From the NCBI GenBank assembly GCA_021813235.1, contig JAKALG010000001.1, positions 19,681 to 31,175 of the forward strand: a stretch of DNA of 11,495 nucleotides. The letters are read 5' to 3'. Below are positions 244-11,261 of the stretch, piece by piece. A program made the position numbers and the translations under genes. The number at the start of each line of letters is the position of its first letter. Position 1 is the stretch's first letter. Below the pieces are notes generated by a model, which was given only the letters and a program-made list of their open reading frames with translations, did no database searches and was not told the DNA's origin. This DNA comes from a bacterium (GTDB lineage: Bacteria > Patescibacteria > Paceibacteria > UBA9973).

Positions 244-2648
244 AATAGTTCGTGTCCACGATTTAATGCGTGGTTTTCTTGTATGCGAATATACTCCGCT
301 GTATCATAATCATCACGGATTACTTCTTCTTTTGGCTTTACATTAAAACAGGATAGCATTGTCGCAATTACGTTATCATCGTGATAACCTCTTTGTGCTC
401 CTGCACCTTTCTGCTGGGAATCATCGGAATAGATAAAGACTTTCATCTCCTCCAATGTGTTCCTATCCCTTATTTTAACATATTTCTTACTCAGCAACAA
501 ATTGTAGTTTGAAATCAATAATTCTTTTGACGCAAAGTTCGTCTGAAAACCCAACTTTTTCAACTTTTTCTGTTCACGATAGTTAAAAATCTCTCTTTCA
601 TACAAATTATCGTATTGTTTTTTAACTGACTCAATAACTGCAGTACCAGACGCATTGGTTTCAATCACCAATAACGGCTTGTGTTTCAACGAATACATCA
701 TTGCCAACTGCATAATCTTCTCCACTTGCACATTTACAGGTACAAATTGGTTATAAATAGCTGTCTGCTCACCTGTATCCACATTAAAGACCACAATGGA
801 ACAAGGGTCAACCGCACCTTCGCTTGAATCTACCCCTATCTGATACTCATAATGATAATCTGGTTCGTGATATATTCGAATCCCATCAAAACTTCTAATA
901 GGTTCTTTCAAATAGAACTCCTGTTGCTTCAGATAGTCTTCTGAAAAAACTCCCCCCTCCACTAACGAGTCTGGAGACCATTCTCCATAGACAAATTTCT
1001 TTACGTACCGTTCAGGTTTTGCTAATTCAGACTGAATAAACTGTTCAGATAAGTTATTCTTGTTATCCAACATAGAAGTTTCAATCAAATGGGTCATTGG
1101 TCTTGGGTGGACCTTAAAATAATCATATCCCCAAAAGTTAGCGGGGTTCGTAGTCATATTAAACTGGTTAAACGTATACGCTCCACAGACTAAACAGACC
1201 TCATATAGCGGGAGTCCATCCTTATCTCGCTTTACTAAAATATCCACATCAGGCACAGTACCATGTTTGCACTGTCTTCTTCTCACACGAGAGTTCAATG
1301 CCTCGAATACCTTATCCTCTATTTCCTCTAACTGGTCCATAAACACGAAACCGAAGTTATGGGATTTAATCTGCTGAATAGCCTTCTTCAAGTCATCTCC
1401 TGAACCCGCTTGGAGGGCATCTAAACCAAAGAAAACGGCTTCGCTTCCATTCCTAAAGATAAGTTTCCCCTCTCCTACCTTGTGGGTGTACATTCCAGAC
1501 GGGCAGACATCTACAAAGTCCTTCATAAATGTCTCACTAGCGTTTCCCTTGGTTTTTCGCCCTATCATTATCCTTGTTCCAGGAAACCATTGGGTTAATA
1601 AGATAAACTTAATAATCCAAGAAAGTGATTTTCCAGAATTATGATGTATAACTCCTTCCGCTAGATAATTATTTGTACCAAACACATGTAAATCATAGAA
1701 ATTATCAAACGAGTGGTATCGCACTTGCACAACCTTTGTAATGGTGTTAAACTTATTATATGAAAATAAATTATAAACCAATGTTAGAATCTTTTGCGGA
1801 TGGAAAAAGGTCTTCAACAGAAATTGCCTCACTAACTGGAATGAGTGCAAAATACGTCCAGAAGTTACTTCTTCGTTATAATCTGCCTCGTTTAAGAGTC
1901 GGGGGTATAGAGGGAAAGAAAAATCAGTATTGGAAAGGTGGTAGATTCCTTGAGAAAGATAAATATTGGCTTGTAAAGGCAAACTGGCATCCTTATAAAA
2001 ATCACGCAGGTTATATTCGGGAACATCGTCTTGTAATGGAACAATCTTTAGGAAGATACCTAAAACCCGAAGAAGTCGTCGACCACATAAACGGAGATAC
2101 GAAAGACAATAGGATAGAAAACTTACGCCTATTTGCAAATAACGCAGAACATTTACGAAAAACTTTGAACGGAAAGACACCGAAATGGACTCCAGAGGGA
2201 TTTGAGAAATTGAGAGAAAATGGTCGCCAACTCCAAGCGAGGAAACGGGCAAAAATCCTTTCTCAGTAAGTACCCTATGTTTTGCGGTGCAGATAAATTT
2301 CCCAGTAGTGGTAGTCACTTCATATAAATCAGTTTTTTGATATTTAAAAGGAATTGAGGCAAATGCCTTAACCAACTTAAAACCATTCCAAGAATACACT
2401 CGGAGTGGTTTTTTAATATCCTTAATTTTTATTTTCTCATTTGTATCTGCATCTACTATTTCCGTGTCTCCGTGAACACAAGCCATACCCCCGCTCACTA
2501 AAGAAAACCTGTTCTTGTCGTTCACAAATTCAATCTGTTTAGGGTTCAGTTTAATTCCTTCAAATTCAGTAATTTCAATCTTCCCGTCCAACCAGTCCTT
2601 TCCCATCTGCTCATATTCACTATTTACTTCTTGTTTAAATTGTTGCAT
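240..2648 (-). CDS. terL: Terminase large subunit (ATPase/nuclease) interrupted by an intein
   Basis: This is the DNA-packaging motor subunit, which hydrolyses ATP to drive DNA into the procapsid and cuts the concatemer. The precursor is 802 residues; removing the intein (57-337) leaves about 521, normal for the family. Visible motifs: Walker A split by the intein (SGGMA before it, SGKS after it), Walker B-like FVFMDQLEE (D438), the coupling motif TTNP (499-502), and a C-terminal RNase H-type nuclease with acidic residues D607 (GVDSSE), E663 (VIETNASG) and D757/D758 (GYHDDN). A Cys/His set (C460, H462, C485, C488) between Walker B and TTNP looks like a zinc-binding insertion. ATG at 2648 has no Shine-Dalgarno. 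The small terminase lies upstream with a zinc-ribbon gene between. Activity should depend on splicing, because the P-loop is broken until the intein leaves. Confidence 0.95.
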   Translation of the reverse strand: MQQFKQEVNSEYEQMGKDWLDGKIEITEFEGIKLNPKQIEFVNDKNRFSLVSGGMACVHGDTEIVDADTNEKIKIKDIKKPLRVYSWNGFKLVKAFASIPFKYQKTDLYEVTTTTGKFICTAKHRVLTEKGFLPVSSLGVGDHFLSISQIPLESISVSFRSKFFVNVLRYLQIGVSFLSYCLSYLRLCGRRLLRVLGIFLKIVPLQDDVPEYNLRDFYKDASLPLQANIYLSQGIYHLSNTDFSFPLYPRLLNEADYNEEVTSGRILHSFQLVRQFLLKTFFHPQKILTLVYNLFSYNKFNTITKVVQVRYHSFDNFYDLHVFGTNNYLAEGVIHHNSGKSLSWIIKFILLTQWFPGTRIMIGRKTKGNASETFMKDFVDVCPSGMYTHKVGEGKLIFRNGSEAVFFGLDALQAGSGDDLKKAIQQIKSHNFGFVFMDQLEEIEDKVFEALNSRVRRRQCKHGTVPDVDILVKRDKDGLPLYEVCLVCGAYTFNQFNMTTNPANFWGYDYFKVHPRPMTHLIETSMLDNKNNLSEQFIQSELAKPERYVKKFVYGEWSPDSLVEGGVFSEDYLKQQEFYLKEPIRSFDGIRIYHEPDYHYEYQIGVDSSEGAVDPCSIVVFNVDTGEQTAIYNQFVPVNVQVEKIMQLAMMYSLKHKPLLVIETNASGTAVIESVKKQYDNLYEREIFNYREQKKLKKLGFQTNFASKELLISNYNLLLSKKYVKIRDRNTLEEMKVFIYSDDSQQKGAGAQRGYHDDNVIATMLSCFNVKPKEEVIRDDYDTAEYIRIQENHALNRGHELL
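1725..1753 (+). promoter_or_regulatory. Candidate promoter for the antisense HNH gene
   Basis: TTGCAC at 1725-1730, a 17-base spacer and TAAACT at 1748-1753 give a modest sigma70-like match ending 6 bases before the HNH ATG. A transcript from it would be nearly leaderless, as at three other genes in the window. The match is weak on its own; the repeated spacing is what makes it credible. Confidence 0.3.
1760..2269 (+). CDS. HNH homing endonuclease encoded antisense inside the terminase intein
   Basis: A 169-residue protein lying entirely within the intein DNA but read in the opposite direction. Residues 18-42 form a helix-turn-helix (SSTEIASLTGMSAKYVQKLL) and residues 83-131 an HNH nuclease of the phage HNH_3 type: EHRLVMEQSLGR, then VVDHINGDTKDNRIENL with D108-H109 and N117 as likely catalytic/metal residues, and H131. 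The length fits free-standing phage HNH homing endonucleases. It covers precursor residues 127-297, just after intein block B and before block F, so it occupies the usual endonuclease slot in reverse orientation. There is no Shine-Dalgarno; a weak sigma70-like promoter (TTGCAC, 17 bases, TAAACT) ends 6 bases before the ATG. It presumably cuts intein-free terminase genes to spread the intein. The C-terminal helix is rich in Arg/Lys. Confidence 0.92.
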   Translation: MKINYKPMLESFADGKRSSTEIASLTGMSAKYVQKLLLRYNLPRLRVGGIEGKKNQYWKGGRFLEKDKYWLVKANWHPYKNHAGYIREHRLVMEQSLGRYLKPEEVVDHINGDTKDNRIENLRLFANNAEHLRKTLNGKTPKWTPEGFEKLRENGRQLQARKRAKILSQ

Positions 2649-2911: not shown

Positions 2912-3367
2912 TTACGGACTAATTGGCTCATCTTGTACTATCTCGGCTTGTATTCTTACTGGCTCATTCTTGGGTAATTCTTGTACATTTCTGACTGTGA
3001 TATTGAGTATTGGTTGAGTGTTCTGTGTGTCATTTGTATTGGTATTTACTATACTATTTCCGTATTTTGAGAACACTCCGTTGATGGCTTTTAACTTACT
3101 GGAGTTATCCTTATCCTGTAAACAGATTTTTTCATATTCCTTAAGCAGATTTTCGATGTTGAAGTAGGGGTCAATAGGTAAACCGCTTTTTTCATATTGG
3201 AGTAACCTATTCTCGATACGTCTATTAAGAGCCGTATGGCGTGTGGTAGCTGTTTTTACACTATAACCCGCCTTAATGAAGGCATCTCGTTTACTCTTAC
3301 TAGTAGGGAGGAGAGTGATAACCTTATCTATTTTATCGGGAATGTGAACCGCTTTTTTCTTTGTCAT
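2912..3367 (-). CDS. terS: Terminase small subunit
   Basis: 151 residues. The N-terminal part (about 22-50) has the HTH signature of small terminases, KRDAFIKAGYSVKTATTR, which resembles the common AxIxAGYSxKTA pattern in which the subunit recognises phage DNA. The middle (50-105) is helical and suited to oligomerisation; the C-terminal tail (about 106-151) is Asn/Thr and then Glu/Val/Pro rich and could contact the large subunit. It is the first gene of the leftward packaging operon. The start ATG at 3367 is preceded directly by AGGAG with no spacer, too close to act as a Shine-Dalgarno, and by a good promoter whose -10 ends 8 bases upstream, so a leaderless message is likely. Confidence 0.82.
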   Translation of the reverse strand: MTKKKAVHIPDKIDKVITLLPTSKSKRDAFIKAGYSVKTATTRHTALNRRIENRLLQYEKSGLPIDPYFNIENLLKEYEKICLQDKDNSSKLKAINGVFSKYGNSIVNTNTNDTQNTQPILNITVRNVQELPKNEPVRIQAEIVQDEPISP

Positions 3368-4220: not shown

Positions 4221-4532
4221 ATGAAAAAAGAAATAGATTATTACGGAACAGAAGATAATTATATCCACTTAAAATTTGGAGATGCCAGAAAATGCTATAA
4301 TTTTACTGATAAACTTATAGAAAGATGCCCAGACTTTACGAGAGAATATAAAAACTATTTTGAAGGGGAAAAATCAAAGTTTAAAAATCCGTTTCAAGTT
4401 GTTTCTTATGTCTATGATAAAAAAATACCCGTACATTTTTATTATAATTACACCGATACACCTGCAAAAAATAGAAAAGAGATAATAAAATATTTAATTA
4501 ATGAGAATTGTTTTGTTGGTGATTTATCATAA
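4221..4532 (+). CDS. Hypothetical protein, 103 residues
   Basis: ATG at 4221 with an AT-rich upstream context and no Shine-Dalgarno; starts 5 bases after the membrane microprotein. The product begins MKKEIDYYGTEDNYIHLKFG, is Lys/Asp/Tyr rich, soluble, with no signal peptide or membrane span, and has predicted mixed alpha/beta character with aromatic residues throughout (HFYYNYTDTP near residues 72-81). I do not recognise the family. Its stop is followed by a 119-base stretch of four hairpins before the next gene. It is the longest intact gene of the rightward unit, so it may be the main product there. Base composition matches its neighbours. Confidence 0.72.
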   Translation: MKKEIDYYGTEDNYIHLKFGDARKCYNFTDKLIERCPDFTREYKNYFEGEKSKFKNPFQVVSYVYDKKIPVHFYYNYTDTPAKNRKEIIKYLINENCFVGDLS

Positions 4533-4542
4533 GCCGTTGATA

Positions 4543-4641
4543 TTGCCTCTATTGTCATAATGGAGGCAAGAATGAGCGGATTATACGCTCACCGCCTCGA
4601 AAGCGGTTAACAACACAACACTATCCCTGTTGATGTTGTGT
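4543..4641 (+). ncRNA. Array of four consecutive hairpins between two rightward genes
   Basis: Hairpin 1: TTGCCTCTATT (4543-4553) with AATGGAGGCAA (4559-4569), 11 pairs, 5-base loop. Hairpin 2: TGAGCG (4573-4578) with CGCTCA (4586-4591), 7-base loop. Hairpin 3: CCGC (4592-4595) with GCGG (4603-4606), 7-base loop CTCGAAA. Hairpin 4: ACACAACA (4613-4620) with TGTTGTGT (4634-4641), 13-base loop. They fill the whole gap between the 103- and 75-residue genes and end 10 bases before the next ATG. No U-run follows any of them, so this is not a terminator; it could be a structured leader, a processed small RNA or an mRNA stability element. It does not fold as a tRNA, and I recognise no riboswitch. 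Confidence 0.6.
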
Positions 4642-4651
4642 AAATTAAAAA

Positions 4652-4879
4652 ATGAATAAAGAAAAAGAATTATTGATGTATATTGACCAGTATGGATACA
4701 AGTATTATGCAAAAACACTAAAAGAATTAAAGCAAGCCGTTTGCCCGTACACAACAAGCCCACGCGTAGCGATAATGTATAGAGATAAAAAAGACGGGAG
4801 CACGGTACGATGTGGATACGTAATATCAGACCATTGGTTAACCGCCTTTAAGCCGTACGAAGTAAAATATAATCAATAA
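4652..4879 (+). CDS. Hypothetical protein, 75 residues
   Basis: ATG at 4652 follows the four-hairpin array by 10 bases in an A-rich context. The product begins MNKEKELLMYIDQYGYKYY; a helical N-terminal half (to about residue 30) is followed by a beta-rich part with MYRDKKDGSTVRCGYVISDH (43-62) and WLTAFKPYE. It looks like a small soluble alpha/beta protein with two cysteines (31, 55). I cannot name a family. The stop is separated from the next start by one base (TAATATG), so the two are coupled. Expression may be controlled by the structured leader in front of it. An AACCGC core occurs within it (4840-4845). Confidence 0.72.
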   Translation: MNKEKELLMYIDQYGYKYYAKTLKELKQAVCPYTTSPRVAIMYRDKKDGSTVRCGYVISDHWLTAFKPYEVKYNQ

Positions 4880-5574: not shown

Positions 5575-5604
5575 ATTATACAACTTTCTTAATATTTTGA
5601 CCAA
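5575..5604 (-). promoter_or_regulatory. Promoter of the zinc-finger microprotein
   Basis: On the - strand TTGGTC (5604-5599), 18 bases, then a perfect TATAAT (5580-5575), followed 7 bases later by the ATG at 5567. The -35 is weak, the -10 is perfect. It overlaps the 3' end of the transglycosylase gene. Confidence 0.5.
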
Positions 5605-6089
5605 CAGTGCTTGCTTGCGTACCATGGTTTTGTATTTTGCGATTTATAGAGATAAACCGCATATTTTATATTTCCTTCGACTGACTTATAATCTAATCCT
5701 AATTCTTCTGCTTTTGCTTCGTGGATAATACGTATCTGGAATAAACCGTAATCTTTCTTATCTGGACCAAAAACACCCTCGTGTCGTAGAGAGCTTTCAC
5801 AAAATGCTATTCGTTTTAGTATTTTGAAATCTTTATAACTTAAACCAGCCGTAATTGATTCGGTATAAAGTAGATATGTGTTGTATTCTTGTTCACTTAA
5901 TTTAAAACTTTCGTTTGCAAGAGAGTGTGATAACAAGGTTTGGATGTTTAGAGGATTCCAACCCTCTTGTGATATTGGTGCTTCTGCTAATACTGGCTTA
6001 TAAAGTGATGCGGATGTTCCAATCAATGCAACAATCAACCCCTTACTCGTCAATCTCACAAGTCTGCAAACTAAATTGTTAATACTCAT
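5589..6089 (-). CDS. Secreted lytic transglycosylase (lysozyme-like), lysis or cell-wall entry
   Basis: 166 residues. An N-terminal signal-like segment (basic MSINNLVCRLVRLTSKG, hydrophobic LIVALIGTSASL, possible cleavage near LAEA at 34-37) sends it across the membrane. The catalytic domain (about 88-162) shows the SLT/lysozyme-like pattern: IAFCESSLRH with E98 as the catalytic acid, DYGLFQI (113-119), then the helical YAVYLYKS and W156. Such enzymes cleave the glycan strand of peptidoglycan. C97 and C162 could form a disulfide. It ends next to a zinc-finger microprotein and lies downstream of a terminator that closes the operon to its right, so it is probably transcribed separately. A 14-base perfect palindrome made of two dispersed motifs lies 5 bases before its ATG and could be an operator. 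Endolysin is the likeliest role; a virion-associated lysin is possible. Confidence 0.85.
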   Translation of the reverse strand: MSINNLVCRLVRLTSKGLIVALIGTSASLYKPVLAEAPISQEGWNPLNIQTLLSHSLANESFKLSEQEYNTYLLYTESITAGLSYKDFKILKRIAFCESSLRHEGVFGPDKKDYGLFQIRIIHEAKAEELGLDYKSVEGNIKYAVYLYKSQNTKPWYASKHCWSKY

Positions 6090-6847: not shown

Positions 6848-7360
6848 TTATTCCTCTTTGTTTTCGACTTTTAGTAAACCGCTATTTTCATAGATGTTGC
6901 CGATGACTTCTAATGTATCTCCTAAATCTACATTACTTGTCTCCCTTGCTATTTCTTCAATAGAATAAAAACCATCAGATAATAACTCTGATTTTTTAAT
7001 CTCTAAACCGAATATTCCATTTTTAAATTCTACTGGGAAAAAACTATTCTCCTGTGTTTGAGCAACTGGCATCATTCCAACTCCTACATCAACAGATTCT
7101 ATATAAGTATCAGGATATAAAACAATATCCCCTTCCCAAATCTCTTTGCCATTCTTATCGAGGAGTCCTGTGAATTGGTCTTTGTGTCTGTGAAATATCT
7201 CCTGTGGATTCCAATACTTATAATCCTTTGAATAGAGCCATTGGGGTATGGCTCTATATGAACCAGTTTCTTCATCTCGCTCTCCTATGTACCATTTCTC
7301 ATATCCAACAATTTTATTGGATGCACTTCGTAATCTAAATTTTATTTCTCTTTGTTTCAT
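6848..7360 (-). CDS. YopX-family phage protein
   Basis: 170 residues. The start REIKFRLRS, the central FTGLLDKNGKEIWEGDIVLY (63-82) and the C-terminal EVIGNIYENSGLL (151-163) are the hallmarks of the YopX family, widespread in phages of Gram-positive bacteria and others and named after the Bacillus phage SPbeta protein; no biochemical function is established. The length is slightly above the usual 120-150 because of an N-terminal insertion (about 20-55, containing WYIGERDEETG). Its ATG overlaps the stop of the upstream cysteine-rich gene by four bases (ATGA), so translation is coupled. The cytoplasmic protein has no membrane segment. Confidence 0.88.
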   Translation of the reverse strand: MKQREIKFRLRSASNKIVGYEKWYIGERDEETGSYRAIPQWLYSKDYKYWNPQEIFHRHKDQFTGLLDKNGKEIWEGDIVLYPDTYIESVDVGVGMMPVAQTQENSFFPVEFKNGIFGLEIKKSELLSDGFYSIEEIARETSNVDLGDTLEVIGNIYENSGLLKVENKEE

Positions 7361-10551: not shown

Positions 10552-10734
10552 TTATTTTTCTTTATTTTCCTCGACCTTTTCTTTTAATAAATCCTCAATT
10601 AACCGAAATTCACCTTGTAGTTTTAACTGCTCTTGTCGTGCTTCCATAATAAGTTTATTTAACTCCGCCACCTTTTCTTCCAACTTATTAAACTGCTCGG
10701 TAATGTCTTTTTTCTTTTTTTCTAAATCTGACAT
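10552..10734 (-). CDS. 60-residue coiled-coil protein
   Basis: ATG at 10734, overlapping the end of the nuclease gene by 13 bases and ending two bases before the OB-fold gene's ATG. The whole protein is one amphipathic helix with heptads (MSDLEKKKKDITEQFNKLEE onward, KVAELNKLIMEA, QLKLQGEFRLIEDLL). It should form a dimeric or trimeric coiled coil. Sitting between the exonuclease and the OB-fold protein, it may tether or regulate them; that is inference from order only. Confidence 0.72.
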   Translation of the reverse strand: MSDLEKKKKDITEQFNKLEEKVAELNKLIMEARQEQLKLQGEFRLIEDLLKEKVEENKEK

Positions 10735-11261
10735 AATTCTTTATGAAATAAACCGACCTTTTCTTTAATCTCTTTGATTAGTTTCTTGTCTCTTTTAACT
10801 TTGAAATCAACCGTATTAAACGCTATTGGGTTTTTTTCTATGTAAGTTATATATCCGTATGGTTTATTCATCGCCTCTAAATATACATTCAACTGGTAGA
10901 TGTGGTCTATTTTGGGTTCTGTTGGTAGATTTGAAACTGTTTTTAGGTCAATTATATTTCCATTTACTATTAAATCCACCCTCCCTACTATCTTCCAACC
11001 GTCATCTTCTATTTGTACTGGATATTCTTGTATTTCATTTGGATAAATCACTTGCTGAACATAATTGTGATACATATTGCCTATCTCAAATATCACTAAT
11101 GTTCTGTCGGTTAAATCCCTTTCCTTGAAAAAATCTTTCGGTTTAAGTTTTCCCGTACAAATATCGTATATTCTACTGGCGTGATAAATCCCAATTTGCG
11201 GTTTATGCCAACTATTATTCTTGTTCTTCGCATATTCAACTATCTTATCCTCTAGTTTCAT
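10722..11261 (-). CDS. PD-(D/E)XK exonuclease, RecB/Cas4-like
   Basis: 179 residues. Motifs of the RecB-family nuclease fold are in order: EIGNMYHNYVQQ (59-70, H65), GRVDLIV (93-99, D96), IDLKTVS (104-110, D105 and K107) and the QLNVYLEAM motif (123-131, Q123, Y127). These residues bind metal and DNA and cleave the phosphodiester bond. Only two cysteines (35 and 177) are present, so the four-cysteine iron-sulfur cluster of true Cas4 is absent or incomplete, and no cas genes or arrays lie nearby. It probably resects DNA ends for phage recombination together with the OB-fold protein. ATG at 11261 overlaps the upstream gene by 17 bases. Confidence 0.85.
   Translation of the reverse strand: MKLEDKIVEYAKNKNNSWHKPQIGIYHASRIYDICTGKLKPKDFFKERDLTDRTLVIFEIGNMYHNYVQQVIYPNEIQEYPVQIEDDGWKIVGRVDLIVNGNIIDLKTVSNLPTEPKIDHIYQLNVYLEAMNKPYGYITYIEKNPIAFNTVDFKVKRDKKLIKEIKEKVGLFHKELCQI

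Follow-up and report, generated by a model that had tools for sequence, protein, structure and literature searches.

The two-strand terminase locus

The stretch analysed here (the window) comprises 11,495 nucleotides of the Patescibacteria contig JAKALG010000001.1, positions 19,681 to 31,175 of the forward strand. Its minus strand carries the gene for a large terminase (TerL) containing an in-frame intein, and within this intein, on the plus strand, lies a gene for an HNH endonuclease (Table 1). The intein interrupts the Walker A loop of TerL between GGMA and SGKS, and the HNH gene is fully nested in it, opposite intein residues 71-241. The original prediction, made from the letters of the window, had claimed a complete terminase intein at this position and an antisense HNH gene inside it, with nuclease and splicing element coded separately; insertion site, intein ends and layout are all confirmed.

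Table 1. Positions of the features in the window, with the evidence for each
Feature	Positions	Strand	Evidence
TerL frame with in-frame intein, 802 aa	240..2648	-	PHROG terminase 3.8e-16; sister terminases P0122/P0123
N-extein, residues 1-56, ends GGMA of Walker A loop	2481..2648	-	
Intein, 281 aa, Cys1 to Asn281	1638..2480	-	
N-terminal splicing region, intein residues 1-90, Cys1 and block-B His68	2211..2480	-	pLDDT; invariant residues
In-frame intein linker, poorly structured, opposite most of the HNH gene	1749..2210	-	low pLDDT; dN/dS 1.81 in relatives
C-terminal splicing region, intein residues 245-281, ends His-His-Asn, +1 Ser	1638..1748	-	pLDDT; invariant N281
C-extein, begins SGKS of Walker A loop	240..1637	-	
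HNH endonuclease gene, 169 aa, antisense inside intein	1760..2269	+	HNH_3 1.3e-12; pLDDT 93.3; dN/dS 0.166 in relatives
N-terminal helix-turn-helix-like region of HNH protein, residues 1-48	1760..1903	+	
HNH nuclease region, residues 52-139	1913..2176	+	
Small-terminase-like open reading frame	2912-3367		weak PHROG match
Lysozyme-like	5589-6089	-	weak match
YopX	6848-7360	-	
PD-(D/E)XK exonuclease-like	10722-11261	-	

In the terminase frame an intein splicing domain is recognised by Pfam (1.6e-9), and the residues expected of an intein (Cys1, the block-B His, the terminal Asn and Ser, Thr or Cys at +1) are all present in the window sequence, with C1, H68 and N281 invariant in 54 aligned rows. 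The structure model gives a Hint-fold splicing domain with confidence, the predicted local distance difference test (pLDDT) averaging 95-98 in the N-terminal blocks and reaching 94-98 in residues 251-281, while the linker between the two parts has low values and appears poorly structured. The insertion is in frame and falls in a conserved motif for which uninserted homologues exist. From the modelled fold and the catalytic residues we infer that the insert would be spliced out of the terminase. A group I intron was also considered and rejected: a search of positions 1400-2800 against Rfam at E values up to 1 found no intron family and only two sub-threshold small RNA matches, and an RNA intron is contradicted in addition by the protein frame that continues through the insert.

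The plus-strand product matches HNH_3 in Pfam (1.3e-12) and an HNH endonuclease family in PHROGs (2.7e-40). Its structure model has a mean pLDDT of 93.3 and comes nearest to I-HmuI, whose nuclease fold it may share; a search of PDB sequences with the same protein returned nothing significant. No nuclease was found by Pfam in the sense (terminase/intein) frame of the window.

Recurrence and constraint of the overlapping frames

The recurrence of this layout was followed in two samples, drawn from scans that each keep the best 80 loci (of 312 and more than 566 relatives for the HNH protein, and of 116 and 133 for the intein). The first sample of 170 loci combined the scans with HNH alignments, the window and three named records; some of its loci share a contig, and clustering at 90% HNH identity removes these. 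Loci were called composite when an opposite-strand frame of more than 300 aa covered the HNH match. Such a long open frame was found opposite the HNH gene in 164 of the 170 loci, or 111 of 117 after clustering, always in the identical antisense phase, and the composites represent more than 100 distinct viral and prophage sequences. The remaining six non-redundant loci (phiH and five more) have no long opposite frame. Both intein ends, Cys1 and Asn followed by Ser, Thr or Cys, are present in 106 of the 111 composites, the other five running off contig ends; the placement of Cys1 is doubtful in L026 and L139, and in L035 and L119 it is shifted by one residue. At +1 the residue is Ser in 76, Thr in 30 and Cys in 4 of 110 loci. 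Where both ends and a start codon are available (87 loci), the HNH gene lies entirely inside the intein in 85, and in the other two it extends up to 44 nt beyond the intein 5' end. Five loci (L048, L071, L073, L118 and L121) form an intein lineage that ends in Gln-Lys-Asn and lacks the usual penultimate His.

The second sample consisted of 160 loci selected by the intein N-terminal region alone. An antisense HNH gene was present in 154 of them and, by the HNH model, a sense HNH in none; five are mini-inteins and one is cut by a contig end. Together with the poorly structured linker, this sets the element apart from the canonical full intein, defined by a homing endonuclease domain in the same polypeptide. 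In this sample, 87 loci share no sampled 40-mer with the HNH-selected set, and 83 of these have the antisense HNH. The mini-inteins (L257, L284, L303, L332 and L333) belong to the same families, have linkers of 2-15 residues and carry no HNH. The original prediction had named relatives with a broken or absent HNH frame as the observation that would count against it; the five loci without HNH are also without nearly the whole linker, and the one left over is the cut locus. Its suggestion that the locus might represent a class of composite elements is borne out by recurrence.

Direct inspection of phage records agreed with the scans. A tblastn search with the HNH protein matched 109 phage records, with most of the protein matched in nine, namely Pseudoalteromonas phage PHS3, Pectobacterium phage Ymer and seven further Pectobacterium/Dickeya records. 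The layout was checked directly in PHS3 and Ymer, and both genes were matched in the other seven, with positions listed for five of them. Recurrence in so many records rules out an assembly inversion and establishes the layout as real. A split or fractured gene was rejected as well, the host frame being unbroken opposite the HNH gene in 111 of 111 composites, although this was also their selection criterion.

The constraint acting on the two frames was estimated by a simple Nei-Gojobori count of the ratio of nonsynonymous to synonymous substitution rates (dN/dS) on the overlapping frames, in 38 independent close pairs out of 366. The HNH frame has a dN/dS of 0.166, against 1.81 for the intein frame over the same DNA, and the differences at HNH codon positions 1, 2 and 3 in these pairs number 608, 504 and 1577. 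The linker peptide drifts because the third positions of HNH codons face the second positions of intein codons; the value of 1.81 is relaxed constraint and not positive selection. Stop codons in the linker frame number 0 in the 111 composites, whereas 484 would be expected by synonymous permutation; the counts for the two remaining antisense frames are 539 and 828. Since the absence of stops in composites results from their selection, the fair count is 18 stops in 117 loci, all of them in the six non-composites. These substitution patterns show that the linker must stay open while its amino acid sequence is largely free.

Expression signals of the antisense gene bear on a different reading, in which the HNH frame would be a chance or decaying frame opposite an ordinary intein linker. 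In its favour, the window copy shows no Shine-Dalgarno word before its start, and the promoter of its own that the original prediction called for did not emerge: a sigma-70 consensus scan of the plus strand upstream of the gene found no promoter, its two promoter-like sites being fewer than in shuffled sequences (mean 3.7). Expression of the HNH gene apart from the terminase is consequently something that we infer. By eye, an AGGA-like word precedes some of the other window genes and none precedes many of them. Against this reading, Shine-Dalgarno-like words of at least 5 nt precede 28 of 92 HNH starts in relatives, compared with a mean of 8.1 and a maximum of 16 in 300 shuffles and with 6% of 597 internal codons used as control (the nearest upstream start was taken, and 19 of the 111 composites without a usable start were omitted). 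The HNH_3 match, the opposite dN/dS values of the two frames and the presence of the same gene in 154 of 160 loci chosen by the intein likewise contradict it. The substitution patterns rule out a chance or dead open reading frame, and we regard this reading as extremely improbable. Two overlapping genes are observed, of which the HNH gene has a conserved frame and the intein retains both an open frame and its catalytic residues; they occur nearly always together.

Host genes, empty alleles and the case for mobility

Sister genes either carry the whole composite or lack it altogether. PHS3 differs from phage AL by an exact insertion of 900 bp; the 200 bp flanking it on either side are 99% identical, with two changes directly adjoining the 3' end of the gap in the alignment. 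The terminase of AL is uninterrupted and without the composite. A prophage of Enterobacter cloacae (L085) and E. coli MEI003 are likewise occupied, and E. coli ET729 is empty, with a continuous VAGFGSGKTW and 84% identity to L085 on both sides of the insertion site. The terminases nearest to that of the window (P0122 and P0123, with 80-81% identity along 54-55% of the query) have an uninterrupted GGMASGK. By pattern, 69 TerL matches divide into 41 with an uninterrupted P-loop, 26 with an intein end and two with neither. The element also explains several annotation faults, namely a short PHS3 terminase, a terminase pseudogene in MEI003 and an unannotated antisense nuclease in Ymer. In the MEI003 locus (L171, 2601-4888), RefSeq annotates the antisense HNH gene and lists the terminase with the intein as a pseudogene whose N-terminus is missing; this locus also contains an 88-bp direct repeat at 4528-4702.

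HNH proteins adjoining phage packaging genes are known, HK97 gp74 being an example, and the HNH protein could be conceived as a packaging co-factor of the terminase that merely happens to be nested in the intein. Extein scans with Pfam, covering 50 of the 111 non-redundant frames and 10 chosen as unusual, agree with this in so far as the host, when it receives a Pfam name (many exteins do not), is usually a terminase: Terminase_6N was found in 22 of the 50 frames and Terminase_3 in 8, counts that may overlap. However, the 10 unusual hosts comprise, besides three terminases and three unnamed proteins, two helicases (L054 and L080), a weaker helicase-like match (L036) and an AAA clamp-loader-like protein (L081), and these last four composites sit in viral contigs. 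The same composite in helicase-like and AAA genes, the uninterrupted terminase without HNH in the sister phage AL and the clustering of insertion sites on the HNH tree make a co-factor role very unlikely. With helicases and an AAA protein among the hosts, the target would rather be the P-loop. Among 110 loci the insertion falls before [STC]xK in 89, between GK and T in 18, before GLGK in two and between G and SNRAGK in one; for two of the 18, the placement of the cut is wrong by one residue. Insertion site changes six times on the HNH tree, against 20.0 when shuffled, a pattern that a site set by the nuclease sequence would produce but that relatedness alone also yields. Because this tree is built on few columns, with 12 of its 107 inner branches starred, only the clustering of labels was used.

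Some observations weigh against a simple picture of mobility. Distances between HNH proteins, splicing domains and exteins all correlate (0.64, 0.59 and 0.58 in 104 loci, with L026 and L139 dropped), meaning that vertical descent is also strong, and a clean signal of horizontal transfer is absent from these correlations. Moreover, empty alleles are explained equally well by precise loss as by gain. Such data would suit a composite that was once homing and is now a fixed, non-mobile relic, its HNH being kept for some other role, for instance the exclusion of rival phages or antisense control of terL. The low dN/dS of the HNH frame, the near-identical occupied and empty alleles and the several host families and insertion sites argue against a relic, which we consider improbable. 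The reading that we prefer, with a probability of roughly 0.88, is that of a mobile intein in which one DNA segment codes on one strand for the protein predicted to splice and on the other for a separate protein, the likely homing nuclease.

The mobile intein could operate as follows. The insert would be translated with the terminase, fold as a Hint domain and excise itself, restoring the Walker A loop; its linker of about 150 residues is mainly the complement of the nuclease gene. The nuclease, with its helix-turn-helix-like N-terminus and HNH domain, would likely be translated from an antisense transcript and would cut or nick an uninserted gene at its conserved P-loop codons; repair from an occupied copy would transfer the whole composite. 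Where the nuclease has been lost, the linker has gone with it and a mini-intein is left, as seen in five loci.

With two functions residing in two genes on two strands and a linker nearly free of constraint of its own, the element is a natural experiment on the capacity of a single DNA segment to encode in two frames at once. As either protein can be disabled alone, splicing would be separable from homing, and the close relatives PHS3 and AL, with and without the element, allow the question of homing to be addressed directly. How a homing nuclease can pass from one gene family to another is suggested by the fixed phase and by the P-loop as a common target in unrelated ATPases.

Between positions 2804 and 10063, the window holds 10 copies of the octamer TGAACCGC, all on the plus strand (0.10 expected), and 25 copies of AACCGC, 21 of them on the plus strand (1.8 expected); they may function in this phage as a packaging or regulatory word or as a binding site. 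Near the small-terminase-like reading frame lie the arms of a perfect inverted repeat of 12 nt (2737-2748 and 3229-3240, with 480 nt between).

Comparison with known systems

In canonical mobile inteins the nuclease is an in-frame domain, so that one polypeptide has two domains. Here, unlike in these inteins, the nuclease is a separate opposite-strand protein and none is read in frame. No intein with an antisense nuclease was found among the titles and abstract openings listed from the open-licence literature or in the portions used of PMC8966425, PMC10448857, PMC6669764 and PMC3423634, and an earlier description elsewhere is possible. We think it probable that the element represents a previously undescribed and widespread class of phage mobile elements, for which we suggest the name "counter-coded intein". 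It would combine a protein intron on one strand with a homing nuclease on the other in a single fixed phase, specialise in the Walker A codons, at several neighbouring positions, of terminases, helicases and an AAA clamp-loader-like protein, all of them P-loop ATPases, and uncouple the expression of the nuclease from that of the host gene.

The terminase inteins of mycobacteriophages, in the portion of their description used here (PMC5050341), resemble the present one in having a splicing domain with Cys1, C-terminal Asn and Ser, Thr or Cys at +1, and in being inserted in the terminase ATPase domain with inserted and uninserted alleles. Relatives of the window HNH outside composites are 32-51% identical over the matched part in phage records and include the free-standing genes of phiH, Thibault and StenR_269, which differ in that their annotation shows ordinary genes with neighbours on the same strand (controls were five of the 109 matched records plus phiH, for which the antisense frame was computed).

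The nearest precedents, judged from the parts of the two reports that were available, are the same-strand hidden HNH of phage ShiLan and the antisense homing genes of group I introns. In ShiLan (PMC11855218), as here, a phage gene contains an in-frame insertion whose second reading frame conceals an HNH; there the frame is the third one on the same strand, and the authors found no intein or intron, whereas the antisense frame described here is carried by a complete intein. In the group I introns (PMC9548176), the nuclease gene also lies opposite the splicing element, and I-DsqI of Didymium squamulosum L2066, encoded by such an antisense homing gene, has been reported as an expressed enzyme that cleaves the insertion site. 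That system consists of an RNA intron in eukaryotic ribosomal DNA, with a gene of the His-Cys family placed in a peripheral loop. Unlike in group I introns, both strands must code in the element described here and splicing would take place at the protein level. The element is a widespread and, as far as the open-licence literature searched shows, undescribed and most likely mobile form of intein.
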